From Neorhizobium galegae (GTDB lineage: Bacteria; Pseudomonadota; Alphaproteobacteria; Rhizobiales; Rhizobiaceae), in the NCBI RefSeq assembly GCF_017877135.1, contig NZ_JAGIPH010000001.1, positions 744,001 through 808,000 on the forward strand: 64,000 bases of DNA, given 5' to 3'. This document shows positions 30,376-55,026 of the stretch, one piece after another (positions within the stretch are counted from its first letter, which is position 1; the number at the start of each line of letters is the position of its first letter). Below the pieces are notes generated by a model that ran no database searches, had not been told where the DNA came from, and saw only the letters and a list, made by a program, of their open reading frames with translations. The position numbers and the translations under genes are program-made.

Positions 30376-30591
30376 CGTCAGCTCCTCTACGACATTGACC
30401 GGATGATGGAGCCTCAAGCGCATGTCAGGTCAAGTGAGGGGTGATCGGCGGTTAGATTTGCCGACAAGCCGCCGTTCATCAATATCGAACAATTTGTCTC
30501 CGATCGTTCATCTTTCGCGGGGCGACGATCTGGCGCATATCAGAGGGCAGAAAGTTAACGGCCACCTGGCCCTGCCCCCGGAGATCCTCCC

Positions 30592-31044
30592 ATGTCTACC
30601 CCCAGCAATGCACTTCTGCTTCTTGCCCGCATCCTCCTCTCCTTCATCTTCATCCTGTCCGGTTTCGGCAAGCTGGCCGATCCGTCGGCCACTGCCGGCA
30701 TGATCACCGGCGCCGGCCTGCCGGCCGCAACCGCCCTTTCCTATCTCGCCGGCCTGTTTGAACTGGTCACCGGCCTTGCCGTTCTCGCCGGCTACCAGGT
30801 AAAGATCGTCGGCTGGGCACTCGCCCTCTTCTGCATCTTCACCGGCGCCGTCTTCCATTCGGGCACGGTTGCCGTTCCCGGCTGGCCGGATGCCGCTCTC
30901 GGCTGGATCAACGCGCTGAACAGCATCATGATGATGAAGAACTTCACGCTGGCTGGCGCCTATATCCTGCTCGCCACCGTCGGCGCCGGCGCCTACTCGG
31001 TCGATGCCCGTCGCGGCGCTGCACCGGCGCTTGCCACCCGCTAA
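30592..31044 (+). CDS. DoxX family membrane protein
   Basis: A 150-residue protein with four hydrophobic segments, beginning LLLLARILLSFIFILSGFGK, the DoxX/SURF4 opening pattern. Small DoxX proteins act in redox or thiosulfate-related membrane complexes in some bacteria; the specific role here is unknown. A GGAG ribosome site lies about 8 bases before the ATG. It is monocistronic, divergent from the ornithine cyclodeaminase-family gene, and followed by a clear terminator. Confidence 0.88.
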   Translation: MSTPSNALLLLARILLSFIFILSGFGKLADPSATAGMITGAGLPAATALSYLAGLFELVTGLAVLAGYQVKIVGWALALFCIFTGAVFHSGTVAVPGWPDAALGWINALNSIMMMKNFTLAGAYILLATVGAGAYSVDARRGAAPALATR

Positions 31045-31067
31045 TCCCTGCCCCCAAGGCAAAAAGA

Positions 31068-31097
31068 AACCCGCTGGAGCGATCCGGCGGGTTTTTT
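31068..31097 (+). terminator. Rho-independent terminator after doxX
   Basis: The stem aacccgc (31068-31074) pairs with gcgggtt (31087-31093), extended inward by three more pairs, and is followed by a run of T to 31097. Confidence 0.88.
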
Positions 31098-31130
31098 CGT
31101 GGGGAAATTTTGACCTTGCACTCCGCAAAG

Positions 31131-31174
31131 CCCCCTCTGGCCTGCCGGCCATCTCCCCCACAGGTGGGGAGATC
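31131..31174 (+). repeat. RIME-like repeat, copy 3
   Basis: Contains CCCCCTCTGGCCTGCCGGCC and then the ATCTCCCCCACAGGTGGGGAGAT palindrome (two overlapping arms). It is in the same orientation as 6896-6943 and forms an inverted pair with the copy at 31268-31316. Confidence 0.8.
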
Positions 31175-31267
31175 ACCGTGCCGTAACCCTCGCGTTTCCC
31201 ACGCCTGGCAGAATATTGGTGCGGAAACCGTCGACATCCCTGTTCTGGCGCCGAGCGTGCATCCTGC

Positions 31268-31316
31268 TGATCTCCCCACCTGTGGGGGAGATGGCCGGCA
31301 GGCCAGAGGGGGGGCT
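31268..31316 (-). repeat. RIME-like repeat, copy 4 (inverted relative to copy 3)
   Basis: The reverse complement closely matches 31131-31174. About 93 bases of unrelated sequence separate the two, and nothing else is recognisable in this gap between doxX and hisG. Confidence 0.8.
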
Positions 31317-31340: not shown

Positions 31341-32036
31341 TCACAAAGCCCCGCGCACAGCCTCTACGATCCTTGCGACCGTCGCATTGCCCTCATGCTC
31401 CGGCTTTTTCGCCCGCACGAGGCAGGCCTCGGATTTGAGGATGACGCCGTCCGACAGCACTTTCAGATGATTGGCAACGAGCGTCGAGCCCGTCGAGGTG
31501 ATGTCGACGATTATATCCGCCTGGCCGGCCGCCGGGGCGCCTTCGGTGGCGCCGAGGCTTTCCACGATGCGATAGAGCTGGATGCCGTGGCTCCCGGAAA
31601 AATGCTGCTGGGTGAGCCGCCAGTATTTGGTGGCAATCGCCAGACGCCGGCCGTGACGGGCGCGGAAATCCGCCGCCACATCGCCGAGATCCGCCATGCT
31701 TTCCACGTCGAGCCAGATGTCCGGCACCGCCACAACCACATCCGCATGGCCAAAGCCCAGGCGGGCGGAAATTTCCATGCGCCGGTCGGCATCCGCCAGT
31801 TCCTCGCGGATGAGATCCTCGCCGGTCACGCCGAAATCCACCGTGCCGTTGCCGATTTCGCGCGAGATTTCCGAGGCCGAGAGGAAGGCGATTTCGATAT
31901 CGTCTGCACCTTCGACGCGGCCGCGATAGGAGCGCTCGTTGCCGATGGCCGAAATCACAAGGCCAGCCCTGGCAAAAATCGCCGAGGCATCGTCCTTCAT
32001 GCGGCCCTTGGAGGGAAGCCCGATGGTAATGGTCAT
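31341..32036 (-). CDS. hisG: ATP phosphoribosyltransferase, short form HisG
   Basis: A 231-residue catalytic subunit of the first enzyme of histidine biosynthesis, condensing ATP and PRPP. The length and lack of a C-terminal regulatory domain identify the short form, which needs HisZ; hisZ is directly upstream. Motifs include [10 protein letters not shown] at the start, DFGVTGEDL and the PRPP-binding-type loop [12 protein letters not shown]. The ATG at 32036 overlaps the hisZ stop by four bases (ATGA), so translation is coupled. The frame extends to 32075 inside hisZ without homology. Confidence 0.95.
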
Positions 32037-33157
32037 CGGCTGGTCTCCCTCGCCTTTTCGATGCGGTCCAGCCACAGCGCAAAGCCGACGGCGGGAATAT
32101 GGTCCTTGGCGCCGAGCAGCGTCAGCATGCGATCATAGCGCCCGCCGCCGGCCAGCACGTCATGGTCGCCGCGCGCGGTGATTTCGAACACGAGCCCGGT
32201 GTAATAATCGAGCGGACGCCCGAAGGCGGCCCGCCAGGTGATATCGGCAAGCGAGGCGCCTGCATTGGCAAAGGCTGCCACGCGCGCATCAAAGCCTGCA
32301 ATCGCGGCCTGAAGCGGCAGCCCCGCGGACCGGGCGAAATCGGCAAGCACGCCCGGCGCATAGCGCAGCGAGACGTTGAGCGACAGAAACTCCTTCAGCG
32401 CATCGAGCTTGGCCGGTTCGAGCGAAGCCCCGGCCAGCAGCCGCTTCTCTTTGAGCCGCCGCACGATCTCGACCGGCGCGCGGCTGGCATTGGTGAGATA
32501 GCCGGTGCGCTCCATCTGCGCTTCGACATGGACGACAAGGGCTGCCTCGTCTCCCGCCTCCAGAAGCGCTTCCACTTCACCCGACAGGCCCGACACGGGC
32601 TGTGGGCGCGCAAGCCGTGCAATCATCGCTTCCAGCAGATCCGTCTGGCCAAACGCGCGCACGAGGCGCTTCTGCCAGCCGGCGGGAAGGCCAAGCGCTG
32701 CCACCACGGCCTCGAACACCGCCTGATCGCCGATGGTGACGGCAAGGCCCCGGTTCGGCAGGACCTTGGTGAGGCATGACAGCGCATCGACCACCACGCG
32801 CGCATCGGCGCTTGCCACGTCCCGGTCACCCAGATCCTCGATGCCGGCCTGATAGAACTCGTTTGCCCCTTCGCGGCGCTGGCGAAACACCTGGCCGAGA
32901 TAGGCATAGCGCTTTGGCGTGCCGGTTGCCGTTTCGATGTGGCGCAGGCAGACCGGAATGGTGAATTCCGGGCGCAGGCAAAGGCTTGCGCCGCGCTCGT
33001 TCTCGGTCAGAAAGATACGCCGGCGCAGGTCTTCGCCGGCCATGTCGAGAAAGGGTTCGGCCGGCTGGATGACGGGCGTATCCACCCGCGTGGTATTGCG
33101 TGCTGCAAATTCTTCGAGCAGCATGGGCGCGAAATCGGGCATGTCGATCAGCGGCAT
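32033..33157 (-). CDS. hisZ: ATP phosphoribosyltransferase regulatory subunit HisZ
   Basis: A 374-residue paralogue of the histidyl-tRNA synthetase catalytic core that lacks the anticodon-binding domain and serves as the regulatory partner of short HisG. Visible HisRS-like segments are [33 protein letters not shown] and [15 protein letters not shown] set the start at 33157 ([12 protein letters not shown]). The open frame continues to 33235, but those residues are encoded by a RIME-like repeat and are not part of the gene. hisS lies about 220 bases upstream on the same strand. Confidence 0.95.
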
Positions 33158-33178
33158 GGGGTAAGGCCTTGGGTGAAA

Positions 33179-33224
33179 TACCCCCTCTGGCCTGCCGGCC
33201 ATCTCCCCCACAAGGGGGGAGAAG
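33179..33224 (+). repeat. RIME-like repeat, copy 5
   Basis: Contains CCCCCTCTGGCCTGCCGGCC then an ATCTCCCCCACAAGGGGGGAG arm. It is located just upstream of hisZ in the hisS-hisZ gap and is translated in frame with hisZ if the start is placed too far upstream. Confidence 0.78.
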
Positions 33225-33321
33225 ACCTGGAGCAAGCGCCCGTTACCAATCTAGCGCCCCGGGCACGACGAACAGTCTGAGCGCGCAAATTGAACAGGTG
33301 GGAAAACGGCACGCGCCGACC

Positions 33322-33357
33322 GGCTCCCTCCCCCTTGTGGGGAGGGTTGGGGAGGGG
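33322..33357 (-). repeat. second-type GC-rich repeat (CCCTCCCCCTTGTGGGGAGG family)
   Basis: A CTCCCTCCCCCTTGTGGGGA palindromic arm followed by GGGTTGGGGAGGGG lies between hisS and hisZ. Related sequence in the opposite orientation is at 58248-58281. It shares the CCCC-TTGTGGGG heart with the RIME-like family but not the CTGCCGGCC part. Confidence 0.6.
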
Positions 33358-33377
33358 AAAAACCACAGACGCCAACA

Positions 33378-34949
33378 TCAAACGCCCTTTGCCCGCAGAC
33401 GATCTTCCGCCTGCTGGCCCAGAATTTCCTTCACCTTGGCCACCAGATCCGCCTCCGGCACGACCACCTGCGCAACACGGGCCTCGCGCCATTCGGTGTT
33501 GTCGGAAATCTCGCCGGAAAGGCGCTTGCCCTCGATCAGGTCCTTGATCTGCACGACGCCTTGCGCCCGCTCGTCACCGCCCTGGATGATGGCGATGGGG
33601 GAGCCGCGACGATCGGCATACTTCAGCTGGTTGCCGAATTTTTTCCAGTTGCCCTGGTACATTTCGGCGCGGATGCCGGCATTACGCAGGTCCTGCGCAA
33701 ACTTTTGGTAGCGCCCCATGGCTTCCACATCACCATCCATGACGGTGACGAGAACCGGCGCCAGAACGTCGTCCTGACCCAGTTTGCCAAGGTTTTTCAG
33801 CGCCGTCATCAGGCGCGACACGCCGATGGAAAAGCCCGTGGCCGGCACCGGCTGGCCCATGAAGCGGGAGACGAGGCCATCATAGCGACCACCACCGCCG
33901 ACAGATCCGAAGACGACCTTTTCGCCCTTTTCGTTGGTCACATCGAAGGTGAGTTCAGCTTCGTAGACCATGCCAGTGTAGTATTCGAGGCCACGTACAA
34001 CAGACATGTCTATAAGTATCCGATCAGGTCCATAACCGGCAGCTGCAACCAAATCCTCAAGGGTACGCAGCTCATTGAAACCGTTCGTGTATGTCTCGTT
34101 TTGCTTGCTTCCTCCAAGGACGCCTTGCAGAGGCATGTTCATCGACCGTCGGACAATTTCTGAGGATTGGACCTGTTTTGTCGACTCGCTTTCCTTTGTC
34201 TTCAGGAATAGATTAGCAACAAAATCGATGTGCTTTTGCTCAAGCCCTGCACCCTTGGTGAAGTCACCACTCTCATCCTTGCGGCCCTCACCAAGCAACA
34301 GCCGCACACCCTCCAGGCCAAACTTGTCAAACTTATCGATCGCCCGCAGCACAGTCAGCCGCCGCGCCGCGTTCTCCTCGCCGCCAAGGCCGATGGCTTC
34401 CATCACGCCATCCAGAACCTTGCGGTTGTTGACGCGAATGACGTAATCGCCGCGCTTGATGCCCAAGGCTTCCAGCGTATCGGCCATCATCATGCACATT
34501 TCCGCATCGGCAGACACGCCGGGTGCGCCAACGGTATCGGCATCGAACTGCATGAACTGGCGGAAACGGCCGGGGCCCGGCTTTTCGTTGCGGAACACAT
34601 AGCCGGCGCGATAGGTGCGGTAAGGCAGCTGGATCTCGTTGAAATTTTCCGCGACGTGGCGGGCGAGCGGGGCGGTCAGATCATAGCGCAGGCTCATCCA
34701 CTGATCGTCGTCATCCTGAAGCGAGAACACGCCCTCGTTCGGGCGGTCGCTGTCGGGCAGGAATTTTCCGAGCGCATCGGTATATTCGAACAGCGGCGTC
34801 TCGATCGGGTCAAAACCGTAGCGCTCGTAGACCTCACGGATTTTTGCCATCATCTCGTTGGTGGCATGGATGTCGGTTGCGGTACGATCGCCAAACCCGC
34901 GCGGCAGGCGGGCCTTGAGTTTCTGCGTTTTTTGCTTCTTGTCGCTCAT
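33378..34949 (-). CDS. hisS: histidyl-tRNA synthetase
   Basis: A 523-residue class II synthetase charging tRNA-His. Motif 2 region [20 protein letters not shown], the HisA-type loop [17 protein letters not shown] and motif 3 region [10 protein letters not shown] are present, and a C-terminal anticodon-binding domain covers about 420-510. The ATG at 34949 has AAGGAAG upstream. Oddly, bases about 33940-34350 (roughly residues 200-336) are much poorer in G+C (119 of 240 counted at 34021-34260) than the flanks and use rare codons such as two nearby ATA. This suggests an internal recombination patch. Confidence 0.95.
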
Positions 34950-35103
34950 GATCGTCTTCCTTGGCCGCGGCACATGAAAAAGGCCGGAAATGTGTGCGGT
35001 TTCTTAGAGGATGCAGGCGAAGGCGGCAAGCCTTGAAGCGGGCGCAACGGCTGGCCGCACACGCTGCGGCCTGCTAGGATGGCGCGGTGTTGGAGATTGG
35101 GCG

Positions 35104-35464: not shown

Positions 35465-36220
35465 ATGATCCTCGAAGCCCTCAACTATGCCGCAAGCTGG
35501 CCGCTGACGCCAAAGCCGTTTCGCCCCCACATCGCCTCCTCCATCAGCCTTTTGGCGCGCGCCAACCGCTGCCGGGCTGCCTGGGGGCACCATGAGGACA
35601 ACAGCAAGGCGCATGTGCTTTCCGCCATCAACGGCCTGAAGCAGCGCCGCACCGCCGTCGTGCTCGGCTCCGGCCTGTTGCGCGATGTGCCGATCCTGGA
35701 ACTGTCGCGCGCGTTCGATACGGTGGTGCTGGTCGATCTCGTGCATCTGGCAAGCGTGCGCGCCTTTCTTGCCGCACGACGGCTTTCCAATGTGCGGCTG
35801 ATCTGGCGCGATCTCTCAGGGTTTGACGAGGCCGTGGCAGGACAGGTGCCGGAACCGCTCGGCTTCCTGCGGCAGGTGCCCTATCTCGATCTCGTCGTCT
35901 CGGCCAATATCCTGTCGCAGATCGGCGTCGGCGCCCGCGCCCGGCTGGAGGCGACCGGGCAGAGCGCGAGCGCGGAGACGGTGCTGCCCGCCCTTGTCGG
36001 CGCCCATCTGCACGGGCTCGCCACCGTTGCCGCAAAAACCTGCCTGATTACCGATGTCTCCTATCGCATCGAGGACAGGGGCGGCAAAATTCTGGAGGAG
36101 CACGATCTTCTCGCCGGCGTGCGCGTCCCCGCGCATGACCAAAGCTGGGACTGGCCGGTGGTGCCGCTCGAAGAGGCGCGCGGGGCGTATCGGGCGGTGC
36201 ACCGGGTGGTGGCAGGCTGA
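35465..36220 (+). CDS. conserved hypothetical protein with Rossmann-like core
   Basis: A 251-residue soluble protein. The segment TAVVLGSGLLRDVPILELSR followed by FDTVVLVDLVHLASVRAFLA looks like the first glycine-rich loop and acidic strand end of a SAM-dependent methyltransferase fold, and LDLVVSANILSQIG would fit motif IV. No catalytic signature is recognisable, so activity is not assigned. The ATG at 35465 has only a weak upstream site. The gene lies after a repeat and 85 bases before the Cys/His/Met-rich exported protein. Confidence 0.65.
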   Translation: MILEALNYAASWPLTPKPFRPHIASSISLLARANRCRAAWGHHEDNSKAHVLSAINGLKQRRTAVVLGSGLLRDVPILELSRAFDTVVLVDLVHLASVRAFLAARRLSNVRLIWRDLSGFDEAVAGQVPEPLGFLRQVPYLDLVVSANILSQIGVGARARLEATGQSASAETVLPALVGAHLHGLATVAAKTCLITDVSYRIEDRGGKILEEHDLLAGVRVPAHDQSWDWPVVPLEEARGAYRAVHRVVAG

Positions 36221-42991: not shown

Positions 42992-44442
42992 GCGGAAACC
43001 GTCCCCATGGCAGGCCGCCCGTCGAGCGGAAACACCTTTGACGGGTTCATCAGCCATTGCGCATCGAAGGCGGCGCGCACCGCCATCTGCTGGTGAAGAT
43101 CGGCTTTCGAATACTGGTGGCGCATCAGGTCGCGCTTTTCGATGCCGACGCCATGCTCGCCGGTGAGGCAGCCGCCCGCATCGACGCAGAGTTTCAGGAT
43201 CTCGTTGCCGGCCGCCTCCGCGCGGGCTGCCTCGTCGGGATCGTTCGCATTGAACAGGATCAGCGGATGCATGTTGCCATCGCCGGCGTGAAAGACATTG
43301 GCGACGCGAAGCCCAAAGCCTTGAACGATCTCGCCGGTGCGCTTCAGCACATAAGGCAGCTGGCTGAGCGGCACCGTGCCGTCCATGCAGATGTAATCGG
43401 CGATGCGGCCGGTGGCGCCGAAGGCGGATTTGCGGCCCTTCCAGATGAGAGCGGCCTCCGTCGCCGACTGGCATTCGCGCACCGTTTTCACCCCATGGCG
43501 GCAGGCGATCTCGACGATCAGCGCCAGCATGGCGTCCATCTCGGCCTCCGACCCCTCGACCTCGACGATCAGCAGAGCCTCGACATCCAGCGGATAGCCG
43601 GCCTTGGCAAAGGCCTCGCAGATCTCGATGGCGGGCTTGTCCATGAATTCGATCGCAACGGGAATGATGCCCGATCCGATGACATCGGCCACGCAGGCGC
43701 CCGCCCCTTCCGAGGTGTCGAAGCCGAACAGCACGGGCCGCGCGCCCTCCGGCTTTGCGATGAGGCGCACCGTCGCTTCCGTGACGATGCCAAGCTGGCC
43801 TTCCGAGCCGCAGACGAGGCCAAGCAGATCATAGCCGCCGGCATCCAGATGCTTGCCGCCAAGCTCGATCACCGTGCCATCCACCAGCACCAGTTTGACG
43901 CCGAGCAGGTTATTGGTGGTGACGCCATATTTCAGACAGTGCGCGCCGCCGGAATTCATGCCGATATTGCCGCCGATGGTGCAGGCCAGTTGCGAGCTCG
44001 GATCCGGCGCGTAGAAAAACCCCTCCGGCGACACCGCATCGGAAATGGACAGATTGGTGACGCCCGCCTGCACGGTTGCCGTGCGGTTGAACGTGTCGAT
44101 CTCCAGGATCTGCGTCATGCGAGACAGCCCGATTACGACGGCATCCTCCTGCGGGATGGCGCCGCCGCAGAGCGACGTGCCCGCCCCGCGCGGCACGACC
44201 GGGATGCCATAGCGGTGACAGTATTTCAGGACAGCCGCCACCTCGGCAGTGGTCTTGGGCAGCGCGACGGCCAGCGGCAGGCGGCGATAGGCGACAAAGG
44301 CATCCGTTTCAAACGGCACCAGTTCGCGCGCCTCATGCACCAGACACTCCGGCGGCAAAAGATCCGCCAGATCGGCAATGATGACCGAGCGGCGCGCCAA
44401 CACCTCGGCACGCGGCTTCAGGAATGCGATGACCTCCGACAC
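42988..44442 (-). CDS. glcD: glycolate oxidase subunit GlcD
   Basis: A 484-residue FAD-linked oxidase, the catalytic subunit of glycolate oxidase. FAD-binding segments are VPRGAGTSLCGGA and IGGNIGMNSGGAHCLKYG, and the C-terminal metal/substrate part has VFHAGDGNMHP and CLTGEHGVGIEKR. The start is a GTG at 44442 with GGAGGAG upstream. It heads the glcDEF operon. The 267-base gap to the divergent NUDIX gene includes an AT-rich stretch at about 44520-44660 that may hold promoters. Regulator GlcC is not in the window. Confidence 0.97.
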   Translation of the reverse strand: MSEVIAFLKPRAEVLARRSVIIADLADLLPPECLVHEARELVPFETDAFVAYRRLPLAVALPKTTAEVAAVLKYCHRYGIPVVPRGAGTSLCGGAIPQEDAVVIGLSRMTQILEIDTFNRTATVQAGVTNLSISDAVSPEGFFYAPDPSSQLACTIGGNIGMNSGGAHCLKYGVTTNNLLGVKLVLVDGTVIELGGKHLDAGGYDLLGLVCGSEGQLGIVTEATVRLIAKPEGARPVLFGFDTSEGAGACVADVIGSGIIPVAIEFMDKPAIEICEAFAKAGYPLDVEALLIVEVEGSEAEMDAMLALIVEIACRHGVKTVRECQSATEAALIWKGRKSAFGATGRIADYICMDGTVPLSQLPYVLKRTGEIVQGFGLRVANVFHAGDGNMHPLILFNANDPDEAARAEAAGNEILKLCVDAGGCLTGEHGVGIEKRDLMRHQYSKADLHQQMAVRAAFDAQWLMNPSKVFPLDGRPAMGTVSA

Positions 44443-44709
44443 GTCGTCTCCTCCACCTGTCCGCCAGTCGTCTCACACATGGCCCATCCGCATCAAGGGC
44501 TTCGCGCAAAGAGAGTGGAGGTCGAAAAAAATCGCTCCATTCCCCAAGCAAATTCTCATATATTCAGGTTGGTGCAATCCAGAGAGTGTAAAAGAGTTTT
44601 GAGATTGCCGCACTTCGAATCAATTTTTCCGCTAACGTCGCAAATGAACAGCTGTGCAATGGCCTTTTCTGCTAGGAGCAATTCAGCATATCCGGAGTGA
44701 ACCAGGACC

Positions 44710-45216
44710 GTGAACCTTCTAAACCAACTCGTCTCGAACCTTTCCCTGATGCTGCGGCGTCCACCGCGCCAGCAGTATGCCGCGCTGTGCTATCGGTTCG
44801 ATGCGGCGCTGGGGCTTCAGGTCCTGCTGCTGACCAGCCGTGAAACCCGCCGCTGGGTCATTCCGAAGGGTTGGCCGATGAAGGGCAAGAAGGCCCATGC
44901 GGTCGCCGAACGCGAAGCCTATGAAGAGGCCGGCGTGCGCGGCAAGGCGGAAAAGGAGCCCTTCGGCTATTTCGCCTATATGAAGAAGCGCAAGAGCGGC
45001 GTGGAAGTGCCGGTGCGGGTGCAGGTCCATGCGCTGCGCGTCGACGAGATGCTGACGGACTTCCCCGAAAAGGACAGCCGGACACTGGACTGGACATCCT
45101 GCGCCGAGGCGGCATTGCGGGTGAACGAGCCGGAACTGCGCGCCCTGTTCATGGCCTTTGATAAGCGGATGGCTTCGCCGGCACCGGTGAAACTGAGGGC
45201 GGCTGCCGGTCGCTGA
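44710..45216 (+). CDS. NUDIX hydrolase
   Basis: A 168-residue Nudix-fold pyrophosphatase. The Nudix box is readable as GWPMKGKKAHAVAEREAYEE followed by AGV; the REAYEEAGV helix with the metal-binding Glu residues is intact, while the Glu expected eight residues before the Arg is a Lys, as in the DIPP-like bacterial subgroup. VIPKGWP just before the box also fits that group. Substrates could be nucleoside polyphosphates or phosphoinositide-like compounds; not determinable. The start is GTG at 44710 with AGGA upstream. It is divergent from glcD. Confidence 0.88.
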   Translation: MNLLNQLVSNLSLMLRRPPRQQYAALCYRFDAALGLQVLLLTSRETRRWVIPKGWPMKGKKAHAVAEREAYEEAGVRGKAEKEPFGYFAYMKKRKSGVEVPVRVQVHALRVDEMLTDFPEKDSRTLDWTSCAEAALRVNEPELRALFMAFDKRMASPAPVKLRAAAGR

Positions 45217-50369: not shown

Positions 50370-50681
50370 TCAGGGGCGGCTTTGCCCCCAAGGCGCGCGC
50401 CGGCCGCGCAGGCGGGCATGCGGCGGCAGAAGCGCATGCGGATCCTGCAACAGGCCGGACTGGCTCATGGCGCGTTCGACCTCCAGCCGCGTCAGGCCGA
50501 TGTCGAACAGCTGGTGATCTTCAAGCTCGCAGATATGCGTCAGCGCCCGGCGGTTGCGAAGCGCACGAAGAACGGTTTTGCTCCAGTCCGCGGCAGAGGC
50601 GATCACATCGGCAAAAAGGCGCACATTGCCTTTCCGGGTGACGGAAAGAGTGCGGGTCATGGTCCGTTCAGTCGTGCTCAT
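50370..50681 (-). CDS. DUF1127 domain-containing small protein
   Basis: A 103-residue protein with the DUF1127 motif at about residues 40-75 (LRNRRALTHICELEDHQLFD then IGLTRLEVERAM). The flanking termini are basic. Small DUF1127 proteins are abundant in rhizobia and some have been tied to RNA or phosphate/carbon regulation, but this one is not characterised by sequence. AAAGGAAG precedes the ATG. It is divergent from the LysR gene (199 bases), a typical arrangement for a LysR target, and has its own terminator. Confidence 0.88.
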   Translation of the reverse strand: MSTTERTMTRTLSVTRKGNVRLFADVIASAADWSKTVLRALRNRRALTHICELEDHQLFDIGLTRLEVERAMSQSGLLQDPHALLPPHARLRGRRAPWGQSRP

Positions 50682-50855
50682 GGGAACTTCCTTTCTTCAG
50701 GCACGAAAATTCATTCCTTAAACAGTGTCAGGCCGCCCGCATCGGGCTGCCGTATCCGAAAAGGAAGGCAGGGACGACGCTTTTCAAAAGCGCCCTCTGT
50801 TTGGCTTTGCCCTTGCGTTATGCGAATTCTCCATTGATCAGTCCAACGAATGTTT

Positions 50856-50866
50856 CTAATGATTAG
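50856..50866. promoter_or_regulatory. short dyad CTAATGATTAG upstream of the LysR gene
   Basis: A perfect CTAAT-G-ATTAG inverted repeat lies 14 bases before the LysR start in an otherwise AT-richer intergenic region. It could be part of a LysR autoregulatory site or a -10 region; the assignment is tentative. Confidence 0.35.
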
Positions 50867-50880
50867 CATCAACCTCACTG

Positions 50881-51849
50881 ATGGATGTGTCGCCGATGTC
50901 TGCTCCCCTTGATACTGACCAGTTGCAAACCTTCGTCGCCATCGTGGACAGCGGCAGCTTCACCAAGGCCGCCGACCGCGTGTTCAAGACGCAAAGCGCC
51001 GTTTCCATGCAGATGCGAAGGCTTGAGGAACGGGTGGGCAAGCAGCTGTTTACCAAGGACGGGCGCGGCAACCGGCTGACGCTGGAGGGTGAAAAGCTCT
51101 TGAACTATGCCCGCCGCATTATCCGGCTGAACAACGAGGCCATTGCCGCCTTCGACGACAACCGGCTGGAGGGGACGCTGCGCATCGGCACGCCCGACGA
51201 TTATGCCGACCGCTACATGCCTGAGATCATCGGGCGTTTTGCAAAAACCCATCCGAATGTCGAGCTGTTCATTGTCTGCGAACCCTCGGTGGATCTGGCG
51301 GAAAAGATGGCGCGGGGCGAGCTGGACATCGCGCTTGTGACGCATAATCCGCGCGCGCGCCAGTCGGACGTGGTGCGCACCGAGCCGCTCTGCTGGGTGG
51401 CCTCTGCCAATCACCCGCTGCGCGACGACGCACCGGTGCCGCTGGCCGTTGGCCGGCGCGATTGCAACTGGCGCCAGCTTGCCTGTTCGGCGCTCGATGC
51501 CGATGGACGCGAATACCAGATCCTGTTTACCAGCTGGTCGTCGATGGTGGTGGCCTCGGCGGTTCTGGCCGGCATGGCCGTCTCCATCCTGCCCGAATCG
51601 GCCCTTCGTCCCGGCATGAAGGTGCTGTCGCAGTCGGACGGTTTTCCGCCGCTTCCGCCGGTGCAGATCGGCCTGATGAAGCGGCCGGGCCTGTCGCCCT
51701 CGCTGATGACGGCGATCACCGACCATATCACCGCCTGCCTCGACAACATTTCGCCGGCCGTTGCCCCCGACGACCTCGACGGCGACATGAAGGCCTTTGG
51801 CCGGGCTGCCGCCCGCCTGCGCACCGCCCAGATGATGCCGGGCTGGTAA
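50881..51849 (+). CDS. LysR-family transcriptional regulator
   Basis: A 322-residue regulator. The winged-helix DNA-binding domain is residues 10-70 (LDTDQLQTFVAIVDSGSFTK followed by AADRVFKTQSAVSMQMRRLE), then a linker helix and a periplasmic-binding-like effector domain from about 95. Four Cys residues lie in the effector region (near 133, 171, 195 and 202), so redox sensing is possible but unproven. The start may be 50881 or the ATG at 50896 (MSAPLDTDQLQTF). It diverges from the DUF1127 gene, its most likely target besides itself. Confidence 0.9.
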   Translation: MDVSPMSAPLDTDQLQTFVAIVDSGSFTKAADRVFKTQSAVSMQMRRLEERVGKQLFTKDGRGNRLTLEGEKLLNYARRIIRLNNEAIAAFDDNRLEGTLRIGTPDDYADRYMPEIIGRFAKTHPNVELFIVCEPSVDLAEKMARGELDIALVTHNPRARQSDVVRTEPLCWVASANHPLRDDAPVPLAVGRRDCNWRQLACSALDADGREYQILFTSWSSMVVASAVLAGMAVSILPESALRPGMKVLSQSDGFPPLPPVQIGLMKRPGLSPSLMTAITDHITACLDNISPAVAPDDLDGDMKAFGRAAARLRTAQMMPGW

Positions 51850-52284
51850 TCGCCGACCCCCTGCCGTTCGGGACAAGCCGGCCTTCGCAAAAGCGTTTCC
51901 GGCTTAAGCGCCCTGTCGCCTTCCGGTGACCCACGAGCGGACATAAAACCGCACCCACGCATGTTCCGGGCCGATCCCAAGCGATGGACGGCACGCAAGC
52001 AGTGCTTGTAACGTCGTGTCTGAAGGCACCCTCGCCTGACGCGACCGCCGCTCCGCCGAGCTCGGCGCCCCATCACTGTGCCCCTTCCGCACACTCTGCA
52101 ACGCCATACCGCAAATCGCACCCAGGCCATTTACAGCGGATTATTCAGCGTATTATCTAGAATAAAACTTCAACGATTCCCCCAATTTGCACGAATACTA
52201 AATATCAAACCCGGAAAATCTCCGAAATATATTTATATTCGAATAATTTGAGCTCATCGTTGATCAAAAACGAGGGAGGAAGCT
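51850..52284. other. intergenic region and AT-rich leader of the autotransporter gene
   Basis: The first about 290 bases are GC-rich without a supportable gene. From about 52140 to 52260 the sequence drops to about 31% G+C (37 of 120 by hand count), with runs such as ATATATTTATATT. Such a segment likely contains the promoter and could be bound by xenogeneic silencers of the MucR/Ros type. No RNA gene or repeat was recognised. Confidence 0.55.
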
Positions 52285-55026
52285 ATGCATTCATTTTTAT
52301 ATTCGCAGCGTCGCGGACACGATCCTTTATATACGGGATCATATAATTCCTGTGGTAGGCTCGCCCTGCGCCATGCGCTCCTGATGACGACGGTTTGCGT
52401 GCCGCTTTCGCTTCTCGCGCTGGCGGCAGCCGGCGTGCGGACCGCGTCTGCGCAGTCCATCACGGCAACCGGCGATATCAGCCCGACACTACCCGGCCCA
52501 ACCGGCTCCTGGTCGCCGTCCGGCCGGCTCGAAGTGGGTGCAACGAGCACGGGGGCGCTCAGCGTCACGGATGGCGCGACCCTGAACTCGATCGATTCCG
52601 CACTTGGCCTGGCCGCCGGCAGCAACGGAAGCATCACCATCAGCGGACAGGGCTCCACCTGGATCAACCAGGGCGGCATCCTGATGAACGATGTCGGTAC
52701 CAGTTCGCTCACCATCTCGGACGGCGCGCGGATGGAGACCGTCAACGGCAGCCTCGCTATGGGCCCGAATTCAAGCCTCACCATCACCGGCGCCGGCACA
52801 TCGGTCGATCTTGGAACCCTGACCGCAACGGATCCGCCAGACTGGACGAGTGCGGCGGGTTATCTCAGTCTCAACGAGGGAACGGCGACGCTGTCCAATG
52901 GTGCAACCCTGCATGACGATGGTGGTTATGTCGGTGGCGCGGGAGCAAGCTGGGCCGAAATGACCGTGACAGGCCGGGGCACGCATTGGACGAACAGCCT
53001 CAACGTCTATGTCGGCGGCAACGGAAACGGCACTGTCGGTTATGGGCGCCTCACTGTCTCCGACGGCGCCGTGGTATCGGCCCATACCGGCGCGGTCGGC
53101 ACCGATACCGGCTCCTTCGGCGAGATGACGCTGACGGGTGCAGGCACGCGGTTTGAAACCCTGGCGAATGCGCATTTTTCTGGAAACATGCGCGTCGGCT
53201 TCAACGGCAACGGCATCGTGACCGTGACGGATGGCGCAGAACTGCTGGTCAGCAACCAGCTCGATATCGCCACCTATGCCGGCAGCACCGGCACGCTGAA
53301 CATCGGCGCGGCGCAAGGGTCGGCGGCGACCGCAGCCGGCACGATCTCGGTAACCAACGGCATCTATTTCGGCGACGGCACGGCCAAACTGGTGTTCAAC
53401 CACACCAGCGACGCCTATGAATTTGACCAGAAACTGTTCGGAAATGGCGGCGATATCCTGCAGATCGCGGGTACAACCATCTACACCGGCGATGGATCGG
53501 GCTTTACTGGCACAACGCATGTGGAAGGCGGAACGTTCGTGCTGAATAGCACGCTCGGCGGGACGATCGAAATCGGAACAGGCGGCACGCTGAAAGGGTC
53601 AGGCTCCATCGGCGCGATCGAGATTGCCACCGGCTCCACCGTGGCACCGGGCAATTCCATCGGAACGCTCAACACCTCGGGCACCTATGTCCAGCAGGCG
53701 GGCGCACTTTATGAAGTGGAACTCGACCCCACCTCGACGGCCTCGGACCTGATCAATGCGGGCGGCACCGCCACGCTGCAGCCCGGAGCGCTGATCTCCT
53801 GGTCCCGCGGTGCCGCCGGCAGCTTCGTGCCCGGCGCGCAATACACCATCCTGACGGCAGCCGGCGGTCTCACCGGAACCTTCGACTGGTCCGGCTCTCC
53901 CGCCGTTTCAGCCTTCTACGATCTGGTCGATTCCTACGACGCCAACAATGCCTACCTGACTGTCACCCAGACGACGGCGTTTACCGATGCCGCCCAGACA
54001 CCAAACCAGATTGCCACGGGCACGGTTCTGCAATCGCTTGCCAGCACCAACAGCCTGCGGGCAGCCGTCGGTATGACGGCCGATTTCGATGCGGCGCGGG
54101 CTGCTTTCGATCTGGTTTCGGGCGATGTCTTTGCCTCCCTGCGGTCGCAGATGCTGGATCACGCCCGCGTTTCCAGCCAGGCTGCCTTTGCGCGACTTGC
54201 CGATGACGAAGAGGGTTTTTGGGCCACCACCCATGGCGGGCGTCTTTCCCTGTCCAGCGACGGCAATGGCGGCGCAATGGCCGCCAACAGTTTTGACATG
54301 ATCGCCGGCATGGATCGCAGCCTCGGCGACTGGCGCCTTGGCGTGTTGATCTTCGGCGCCACGCAGCATATTTCTGCCGGAGACCGGGACATGACCGGCA
54401 CGCTGAACACCGGCGGACTCGGCGCCTATGCCGGCGCCGACTGGGGTGCAACGGCCTTCGATCTGGCGGCGAGCTTCGGCTACAGCGGCATCGACACCAC
54501 CCGCAACGTGACCATCGGCAGCTTTTCCGATCACCTGACGGGCGATTATGGCGGGCTTTCCGGCCAGGTGTCTGCCCGCCTGTCGCAGCGCATCAGCACG
54601 CCGCAGTTTGACATCGTGCCTTTCGGCGAGGCCATCTACCTGACGGCCTCCACGCGCGACCTGCGTGAAAGCGGCGGCCTTGCCGCCCTGTCTGTCGATG
54701 GCGACACCGATCATGCGCTGATCGCAACGATCGGCACGACGGTTGAAAAGGGCCTGACGCTGGAGGACGGGCGAAAGGCGGATCTGAAGCTGGGGCTGGG
54801 CTGGCAGCATGCCGATGCCGACACGCCCCAATCGCGCAATGCCTTCTCCACCGGCAATGCCTTCACCGTGTCAGGGGTTGCCTTGCCGGAGAATGCGCTG
54901 GCGCTCAATGCAAGCTTCGGTGTTGCCGTCAGCGAGAAGGCAGCGCTCGGGGTGAGCTACAATGGGCTGCTGAGCGGCGACGGCGATGCCCATGCCGTGA
55001 AGATCAACTTTAACAGCCGCTTCTGA
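52285..55026 (+). CDS. autotransporter (type Va secretion) with beta-barrel domain
   Basis: A 913-residue outer-membrane autotransporter. An extended N-terminal region leads into a signal peptide (LALRHALLMTTVCVPLSLLA, cleavage near ASA-QS at residue 57). The passenger (about 58-590) is a repetitive Gly/Thr/Ser-rich beta-helix with recurring TVSDGA, TITGAGT and VGGNGNGTV-like units, as in pertactin-like adhesins. A linker helix region (about 600-640) precedes the 12-stranded barrel (about 645-913), which ends in the required Phe (FNSRF). No protease triad is evident, so an adhesin or surface-structure role is more likely. GGGAGG precedes the ATG. Confidence 0.92.
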   Translation: MHSFLYSQRRGHDPLYTGSYNSCGRLALRHALLMTTVCVPLSLLALAAAGVRTASAQSITATGDISPTLPGPTGSWSPSGRLEVGATSTGALSVTDGATLNSIDSALGLAAGSNGSITISGQGSTWINQGGILMNDVGTSSLTISDGARMETVNGSLAMGPNSSLTITGAGTSVDLGTLTATDPPDWTSAAGYLSLNEGTATLSNGATLHDDGGYVGGAGASWAEMTVTGRGTHWTNSLNVYVGGNGNGTVGYGRLTVSDGAVVSAHTGAVGTDTGSFGEMTLTGAGTRFETLANAHFSGNMRVGFNGNGIVTVTDGAELLVSNQLDIATYAGSTGTLNIGAAQGSAATAAGTISVTNGIYFGDGTAKLVFNHTSDAYEFDQKLFGNGGDILQIAGTTIYTGDGSGFTGTTHVEGGTFVLNSTLGGTIEIGTGGTLKGSGSIGAIEIATGSTVAPGNSIGTLNTSGTYVQQAGALYEVELDPTSTASDLINAGGTATLQPGALISWSRGAAGSFVPGAQYTILTAAGGLTGTFDWSGSPAVSAFYDLVDSYDANNAYLTVTQTTAFTDAAQTPNQIATGTVLQSLASTNSLRAAVGMTADFDAARAAFDLVSGDVFASLRSQMLDHARVSSQAAFARLADDEEGFWATTHGGRLSLSSDGNGGAMAANSFDMIAGMDRSLGDWRLGVLIFGATQHISAGDRDMTGTLNTGGLGAYAGADWGATAFDLAASFGYSGIDTTRNVTIGSFSDHLTGDYGGLSGQVSARLSQRISTPQFDIVPFGEAIYLTASTRDLRESGGLAALSVDGDTDHALIATIGTTVEKGLTLEDGRKADLKLGLGWQHADADTPQSRNAFSTGNAFTVSGVALPENALALNASFGVAVSEKAALGVSYNGLLSGDGDAHAVKINFNSRF

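Follow-up and report, generated by a model that had tools for sequence, protein, structure and literature searches.

Rhizobial histidyl-tRNA synthetase (HisRS), an otherwise highly conserved enzyme that is single-copy in the strain considered here, varies at one fixed position, where rhizobia have dozens of different cassettes; tRNA-His does not change with the cassette. The low-GC patch in hisS of Neorhizobium galegae is one allele of this hypervariable cassette, which lies in the HisRS insertion domain and is exchangeable. On the reading we prefer, and in which our confidence is evenly balanced, the cassette is kept diverse by an antagonist. Dozens of interchangeable modules of differing sequence would not be expected in an essential, single-copy tRNA synthetase.

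The hisS gene and its low-GC patch

The window is a stretch of 64,000 nucleotides of N. galegae (contig NZ_JAGIPH010000001.1, positions 744,001 to 808,000). In it, hisS occupies 33378..34973 on the minus strand, as a 531-aa frame from GTG, with an ATG at 34949 as the likely start. The product scores 379.8 bits against TIGR00442 (histidine--tRNA ligase), above the curated cutoff of 286.75, and the segments GRFRQF and RGLEYYTG, which we take to be the catalytic segments of histidine--tRNA ligase, are intact and invariant across 36 aligned HisRS sequences. The genome of this strain (G000) has a single hisS match; the synthetase is thus single-copy here, which implies that this gene is probably the one that charges tRNA-His. 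Resistance through a second synthetase copy was rejected on the same match. Contamination was also rejected, since hisS lies on a 1.54-Mb contig beside its downstream neighbours hisZ (32033..33235, minus strand) and hisG (31341..32075, minus strand), as in annotated S. meliloti, and since its cassette type recurs in six other assemblies.

The first-pass annotation described a low-GC, rare-codon patch inside hisS, and the patch is real. The G+C of 119/240 over 34021-34260 is exact, and 33841-33900 stands at 71.7%. Across the window, 240-base windows have a mean GC of 63.4% (SD 4.0%), and a value as low as that of the patch is reached by 0.72% of them; at hisS, those below 50% span 33903-34298, a tract (without strand) that runs past the cassette into conserved codons. 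Three further stretches of the window contain 240-base windows below 50% GC (52006-52442, 44416-44793 and 50675-50933), the deepest dip (37.9%) taking in the upstream region and the start of a 913-aa frame at 52285 that by eye is autotransporter-like. The rare codons reported are found in hisS as ATA at codons 319 and 321, TCT at 324 and GTA at 326; TCT also occurs at codons 154 and 357. GC3 is 54/106 over codons 240-345, an interval picked after the dip was seen, versus 324/425 in the remaining gene (Fisher p = 1e-6).

A divergent protein segment, which had been placed at residues 200-336, does exist, but it is narrower, at about residues 245-322. These 78 residues (34008..34241, minus strand), delimited by alignments and assigned by typing to type 2, are the hypervariable cassette, which lies within the HisRS insertion domain between a conserved 12-residue and a conserved 10-residue motif. 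Its N-side edge (34242..34298, minus strand; 19 residues) has low GC3 despite a conserved protein. The alignments also give a conserved C-side edge (33972..34007, minus strand; 12 residues), which contains the HisA motif of HisRS. More widely, residues 226-244 and 323-336 are conserved as protein and low in GC3 in this strain.

Diversity of the cassette across rhizobia

hisS was read from 57 genomes of the genus and 10 of other genera in the family or order, from 80 named GTDB loci (nearly all Rhizobiaceae by title, and partly the same assemblies) and from seven plasmid-collection records, giving 154 genes. The cassette pattern failed in two of these (L059 and L081, both typed later). Merging 16 identical copies, mostly one assembly present in two collections, and excluding genes too distant, incomplete or frame-broken (L057, L058, L060-L067, L079 and L082) left 124 distinct genes for counting; L057 and L061 were still included in cassette typing. 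The hisS frame is broken outside the cassette in L079 (S. meliloti Ak57), L082 (Sinorhizobium sp. M103) and L057 (G015), possibly by sequencing errors. Typing was done separately for 30 loci from a second genus and three from a third. Types were defined by single linkage at phmmer E < 1e-4, and weaker links between types exist. There are 165 unique cassettes, one of them too short for typing, and the 164 typed, other genera included, fall into 56 types.

Outside the segment between the two conserved edges HisRS is nearly constant. Over the 80 named loci, the 25-residue blocks 251-275 and 276-300 have mean identities of 15% and 11% to this strain, and the other HisRS blocks 75-100%, except residues 1-25 (56%) and 301-325 (59%, mostly cassette). 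As controls in the same loci, no block of hisZ falls below 46% and none of hisG below 66%; a less conserved neighbour at 35465, present in 63 loci, has a mean of 57% and one block at 38%.

A standard cassette of 60-61 aa is carried by 71 of the 124 distinct genes and is recognisable as one family in Rhizobium, Agrobacterium, Sinorhizobium and Shinella records. The other 53 genes carry alternative cassettes of 51-119 aa in 38 types, and 28 of the 39 types in all are singletons. Within the genus of the window, 23 of the 57 genomes have the standard cassette and 34 an alternative one, in 28 types; the patch is thus not peculiar to this strain. The same pattern is seen in a second genus of the order (genomes of 5-10 Mb; 40 genomes searched, 30 loci read), where two types are common (16 and 7 loci) and six are rarer. 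Six of those seven loci have a cassette GC3 of 0.47-0.58, versus 0.72-0.89 in the flanks.

Type 2 is found in six other rhizobia, three of the same genus (G014, G052 and G032) and three others (L085-L087: Rhizobium wuzhouense, a Rhizobiaceae MAG and Rhizobium sp. S152). To judge from the cassette sequences, some types appear to cross families: type 4 is common to Neorhizobium petrolearium, Rhizobium oryziradicis and G099 (family f41), and type 13 to G015 and G065 (family f7). Weaker links (E 2e-4 to 3e-4) involve L097, L140 and L256, the last from family f35.

Base composition of standard and alternative cassettes

Among the 124 genes, cassette GC3 has a mean of 0.75 (0.48-0.92) in standard versus 0.54 (0.35-0.68) in alternative genes (p = 2e-18). 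More than 60 codons out, the values are 0.81 and 0.82, slightly higher in alternative genes (p = 0.01). A composition dip in all rhizobial hisS genes, which the first-pass annotation had set against its own reading, is found in part: the dip is characteristic of genes with alternative cassettes, standard genes showing a shallower one (0.75 versus 0.81 in the flanks). On the N side of alternative cassettes GC3 is lowered over about 50 codons (for example 0.68 versus 0.83 next to the cassette), and therefore the exchanged tract often extends past the variable protein on that side. On the C side, there is no effect in the first ten codons (0.72 in alternative versus 0.70 in standard genes) and a weak one farther out (0.73 versus 0.79, then 0.74 versus 0.81).

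Exchange of the segment between strains

By flank DNA, the gene nearest to that of this strain is that of G017 (88%), which has a standard cassette with 29% identity in the segment, and the cassette itself is nearest to those of G014, G052, G032 and L087 (70-72% identity). The flanks and the middle of hisS, for which separate trees were proposed as a check in the first-pass annotation, have conflicting histories. The flank tree was made without the 60 and 50 codon columns adjoining the cassette and is a quick tree in which 47 of 121 inner branches are weakly supported. On it the sister of this strain is G008, which carries type 7. The seven carriers of type 2 require seven changes, and a tree constrained to unite them is rejected (AU p = 1.1e-6). 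Nine more types are shared among the 124 genes, each with two carriers and two changes required. The standard or alternative state requires 33 changes, versus a mean of 40.0 in 300 shuffles (minimum 33, with two at 33 or fewer), so that the state is scattered yet slightly more clustered than expected by chance.

The clearest case lies within one named species. Shinella zoogloeoides strains Teo12 (L084) and PQ7 (L157) are 98.3% identical over 5,556 aligned bases on one side of the replacement and 97.6% over 5,655 on the other, and inside hisS 442 bp (43% GC) stand in place of 304 bp (67% GC). A repeat downstream of hisS in Shinella matches many rhizobial plasmid records. In G014 and G052, 28 + 78 + 31 = 137 codons centred on the cassette differ at a single codon, versus 47 of 387 codons in the remaining gene (p = 7e-6, the tract being chosen after inspection); their pS is 0 in the cassette and 0.14-0.18 elsewhere. 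In two close pairs with different cassettes (G017/G056 and G042/G050), 20-codon blocks stay at 85% or above within 100 codons of the cassette. Thus, a wide exchanged tract is not present in every close pair; replaced tracts vary in extent and run into conserved codons. These alignments and trees show that the segment has been replaced between strains and between species while its flanks stayed where they were, and we infer homologous recombination as the simplest mechanism.

The first-pass annotation had attributed the patch to gene conversion from a distant donor. The segmental replacement inside an essential gene stands, but the distant donor is without support. A single such event in this strain would agree with the low GC and rare codons, and with the different nearest relatives of flanks and cassette. 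However, type 2 is shared with six more rhizobia, and the same place is occupied by another 37 alternative types; moreover, samples of the order (397 genomes, E <= 1e-7) and of the class (385 genomes, E <= 1e-5) yielded no relative of this cassette except that of G000, and low GC persists in alternative types whose members are near silent saturation. Given the genus-wide pattern, a single distant-donor conversion is largely refuted, and we give it hardly any credence.

Linked genes, mobile sources and structure

With many different fillers at one site, the variants might instead be made by a mobile or self-diversifying device (a retroelement, an intein remnant or shuffling of silent cassettes). 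We regard this as very improbable. No direct or inverted repeats were found in window positions 33800-34500, G000 has one copy of hisS and one of this cassette, and the replaced tracts are of unequal extent and enter conserved codons. Against a diversity-generating retroelement target is that these positions contain no template/variable repeat pair, and against silent-cassette shuffling that this cassette, queried with its own type, has one match in G000. The cassette of this strain has no relative in PHROGs, phages or IMG/VR, its only plasmid match is of 31 residues within another hisS, and PDB and Pfam give nothing for the isolated cassette. When six cassette types were compared with PHROGs, type 4 alone matched, weakly (phrog_18026, function unknown; E 0.038). 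Nor does any ORF family within about 6 kb of hisS stand out in carriers of alternative cassettes in the 80 loci (27 alternative, 53 standard): the smallest p was 0.004, for a family commoner beside standard cassettes, and is not taken as convincing.

Three predicted viral contigs in IMG/VR (L291-L293) have a hisS 55-70% identical to this one, and are perhaps host flanks of proviruses. A recurrent intergenic repeat lies around hisGZS (near 30508-31279, 31110, 33100-33492 and 35135), recognised as the shared peptides PAGHLPH and ACRPSPPQ in chance reading frames. Two structure models were poor (mean pLDDT 42.5 and 51.0), and for this reason the surface position of the cassette is a presumption.

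tRNA-His

Full-length tRNA-His was read in 56 of the 57 genomes of the genus; partial copies are a fragment for G032 and one of two for G016. The tRNA starts with GCGGTTG and ends with ACCA, consistent with A73. It is identical in 28 of the 56 genomes, 11 with standard and 17 with alternative cassettes, and none of the 56 differs in the acceptor stem or the D-arm; the T-arm varies, as does the anticodon arm in two genomes, regardless of the cassette. Since the same tRNA-His occurs with both classes of cassette, co-evolution with tRNA-His was rejected as the driver.

Two genomes each have two tRNA-His 3'-half matches (G032:C7:51516 and 72671, 21 kb apart; G016:C4:355810 and 381566, 26 kb apart), and in each pair at least one is without the 5' half (for G032, one of the two was read). 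Such pairs are as left by an integrative element using tRNA-His as its attachment site, and the T-arm polymorphism of an otherwise nearly constant tRNA perhaps comes from swaps by such elements.

Another possibility is co-evolution with an internal partner other than tRNA-His, such as a regulator, another binding protein or HisZ. A role in binding has been proposed for variable regions of conserved genes (PMC387263). We consider this unlikely, as cassettes differ despite identical tRNA-His, the Shinella cassettes differ between flanks about 98% identical on both sides, and no linked gene co-varies in the 80 loci.

Constraint and age of the cassettes

pN/pS of the cassette was calculated for 17 pairs within alternative types. 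Fifteen pairs have 0.21-0.63 and G014/G032 has 0.74, and for G014/G052 the ratio is undefined. Four standard pairs have 0.11-0.34 and are mostly more constrained than the alternative pairs, whose flanks have 0.03-0.26 (G014/G052 left out). Reading frame and amino-acid constraint are thus kept in the cassettes; a pN/pS below 1 shows constraint only, and not selection for diversity. A pseudogene was rejected, as no frame among the counted genes is interrupted within the cassette and as pN/pS stays under 1. In nine of the 17 pairs the silent sites of the cassette are near saturation (pS at least 0.71), versus 0.34-0.62 in the flanks, suggesting that these cassettes are older than their present flanks. 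By silent sites the cassette is the younger part in G014/G032 and G000/L087.

What may keep the cassettes diverse

The main rival to an antagonist is a structurally tolerant module: the insertion domain would take many fillers, and ancient alleles would be shuffled by ordinary recombination and persist, being all about equally functional. This is a serious possibility, although we rather doubt it. It agrees with the conserved edges kept in the aligned types, with the weaker constraint on alternative cassettes than on flanks (0.21-0.74 versus 0.03-0.26, without G014/G052) and with the scatter of the standard and alternative states over the flank tree. However, the standard type is one family across Rhizobium, Agrobacterium, Sinorhizobium and Shinella, and so the segment is not free to vary. 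Also, a neutral pool under frequent exchange would in general be expected to collapse to few alleles, whereas most types here are singletons.

With an antagonist as driver, the insertion domain would be the docking surface of a putative phage, bacteriocin or toxin protein. Rare surfaces would escape it, and many rare types would be kept because the domain would be where the antagonist docks. Replacement would proceed by homologous recombination in the conserved flanking codons, and the enzyme, its module changed but neutral towards the tRNA, would continue to charge the same tRNA. That versions are swapped with the rest of the gene and the tRNA near-constant suggests that nature may reward the rare version; we infer, short of proof, that an agent which docks on the domain exerts diversifying selection. 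An antagonist does not account for the low GC of alternative cassettes. One idea is that rare alleles, seldom meeting a similar partner, may escape GC-biased conversion and so keep their low GC.

More broadly, and more tentatively, HisRS, a cytosolic housekeeping synthetase, may have become a serotype-like locus, whose insertion domain docks a putative family of proteins borne by phages or competitors. Rhizobia would escape these by swapping cassettes, and dozens of rare alleles would form a common pool extending across genera and probably across families; our confidence in this falls short of even. An antagonist, if real, would point to phage or toxin proteins of an undescribed class that act on HisRS. 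The natural panel of cassettes and the close Shinella pair make the idea directly testable.

Comparison with known systems

Among the matches listed in open-licence PubMed Central, no report of a variable HisRS cassette in rhizobia was found. Producers of agrocin 84 carry a resistant second copy of LeuRS. This resembles the antagonist reading in that a synthetase variant escapes an antagonist, and differs in that a second gene copy is involved, and not one segment of a single copy.

In alphaproteobacterial HisRS (Caulobacter), where tRNA-His is without G-1, the tRNA-linked change is in the motif 2 loop and positions 72-73, and the passages available do not mention a variable insertion-domain cassette (PMC3875453, PMC9976931). 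The enzyme and the bacterial class are the same as here, and the tRNA-His here is consistent with A73.

Segmentally variable genes were described by Zheng, Roberts and Kasif in 2004 (PMC387263). Such a gene is conserved but holds a rapidly changing, domain-size segment, as hisS does here, and aminoacyl-tRNA synthetases are discussed in the portion available, with ProRS as an example (PMC387263). The definition given there asks for a variable region of 70 aa or more flanked by conserved ones (PMC387263), and the present cassette, at 78 aa, falls within it; many cassettes are shorter (alternative 51-119 aa, standard 60-61 aa). Outside that definition, the variability of synthetases is ascribed, in the same portion, to tRNA recognition across distant species (PMC387263), an explanation that does not hold here. 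The hisS cassette differs in varying between members of a genus and between strains of a named species, in being exchanged, and in leaving tRNA-His unchanged. In what is available of that source, the segmentally variable gene is the closest published idea found, although the tRNA-His data do not fit its tie to tRNA (PMC387263); the hisS cassette parts two things that are usually tied, the variability of a synthetase and the recognition of its tRNA.
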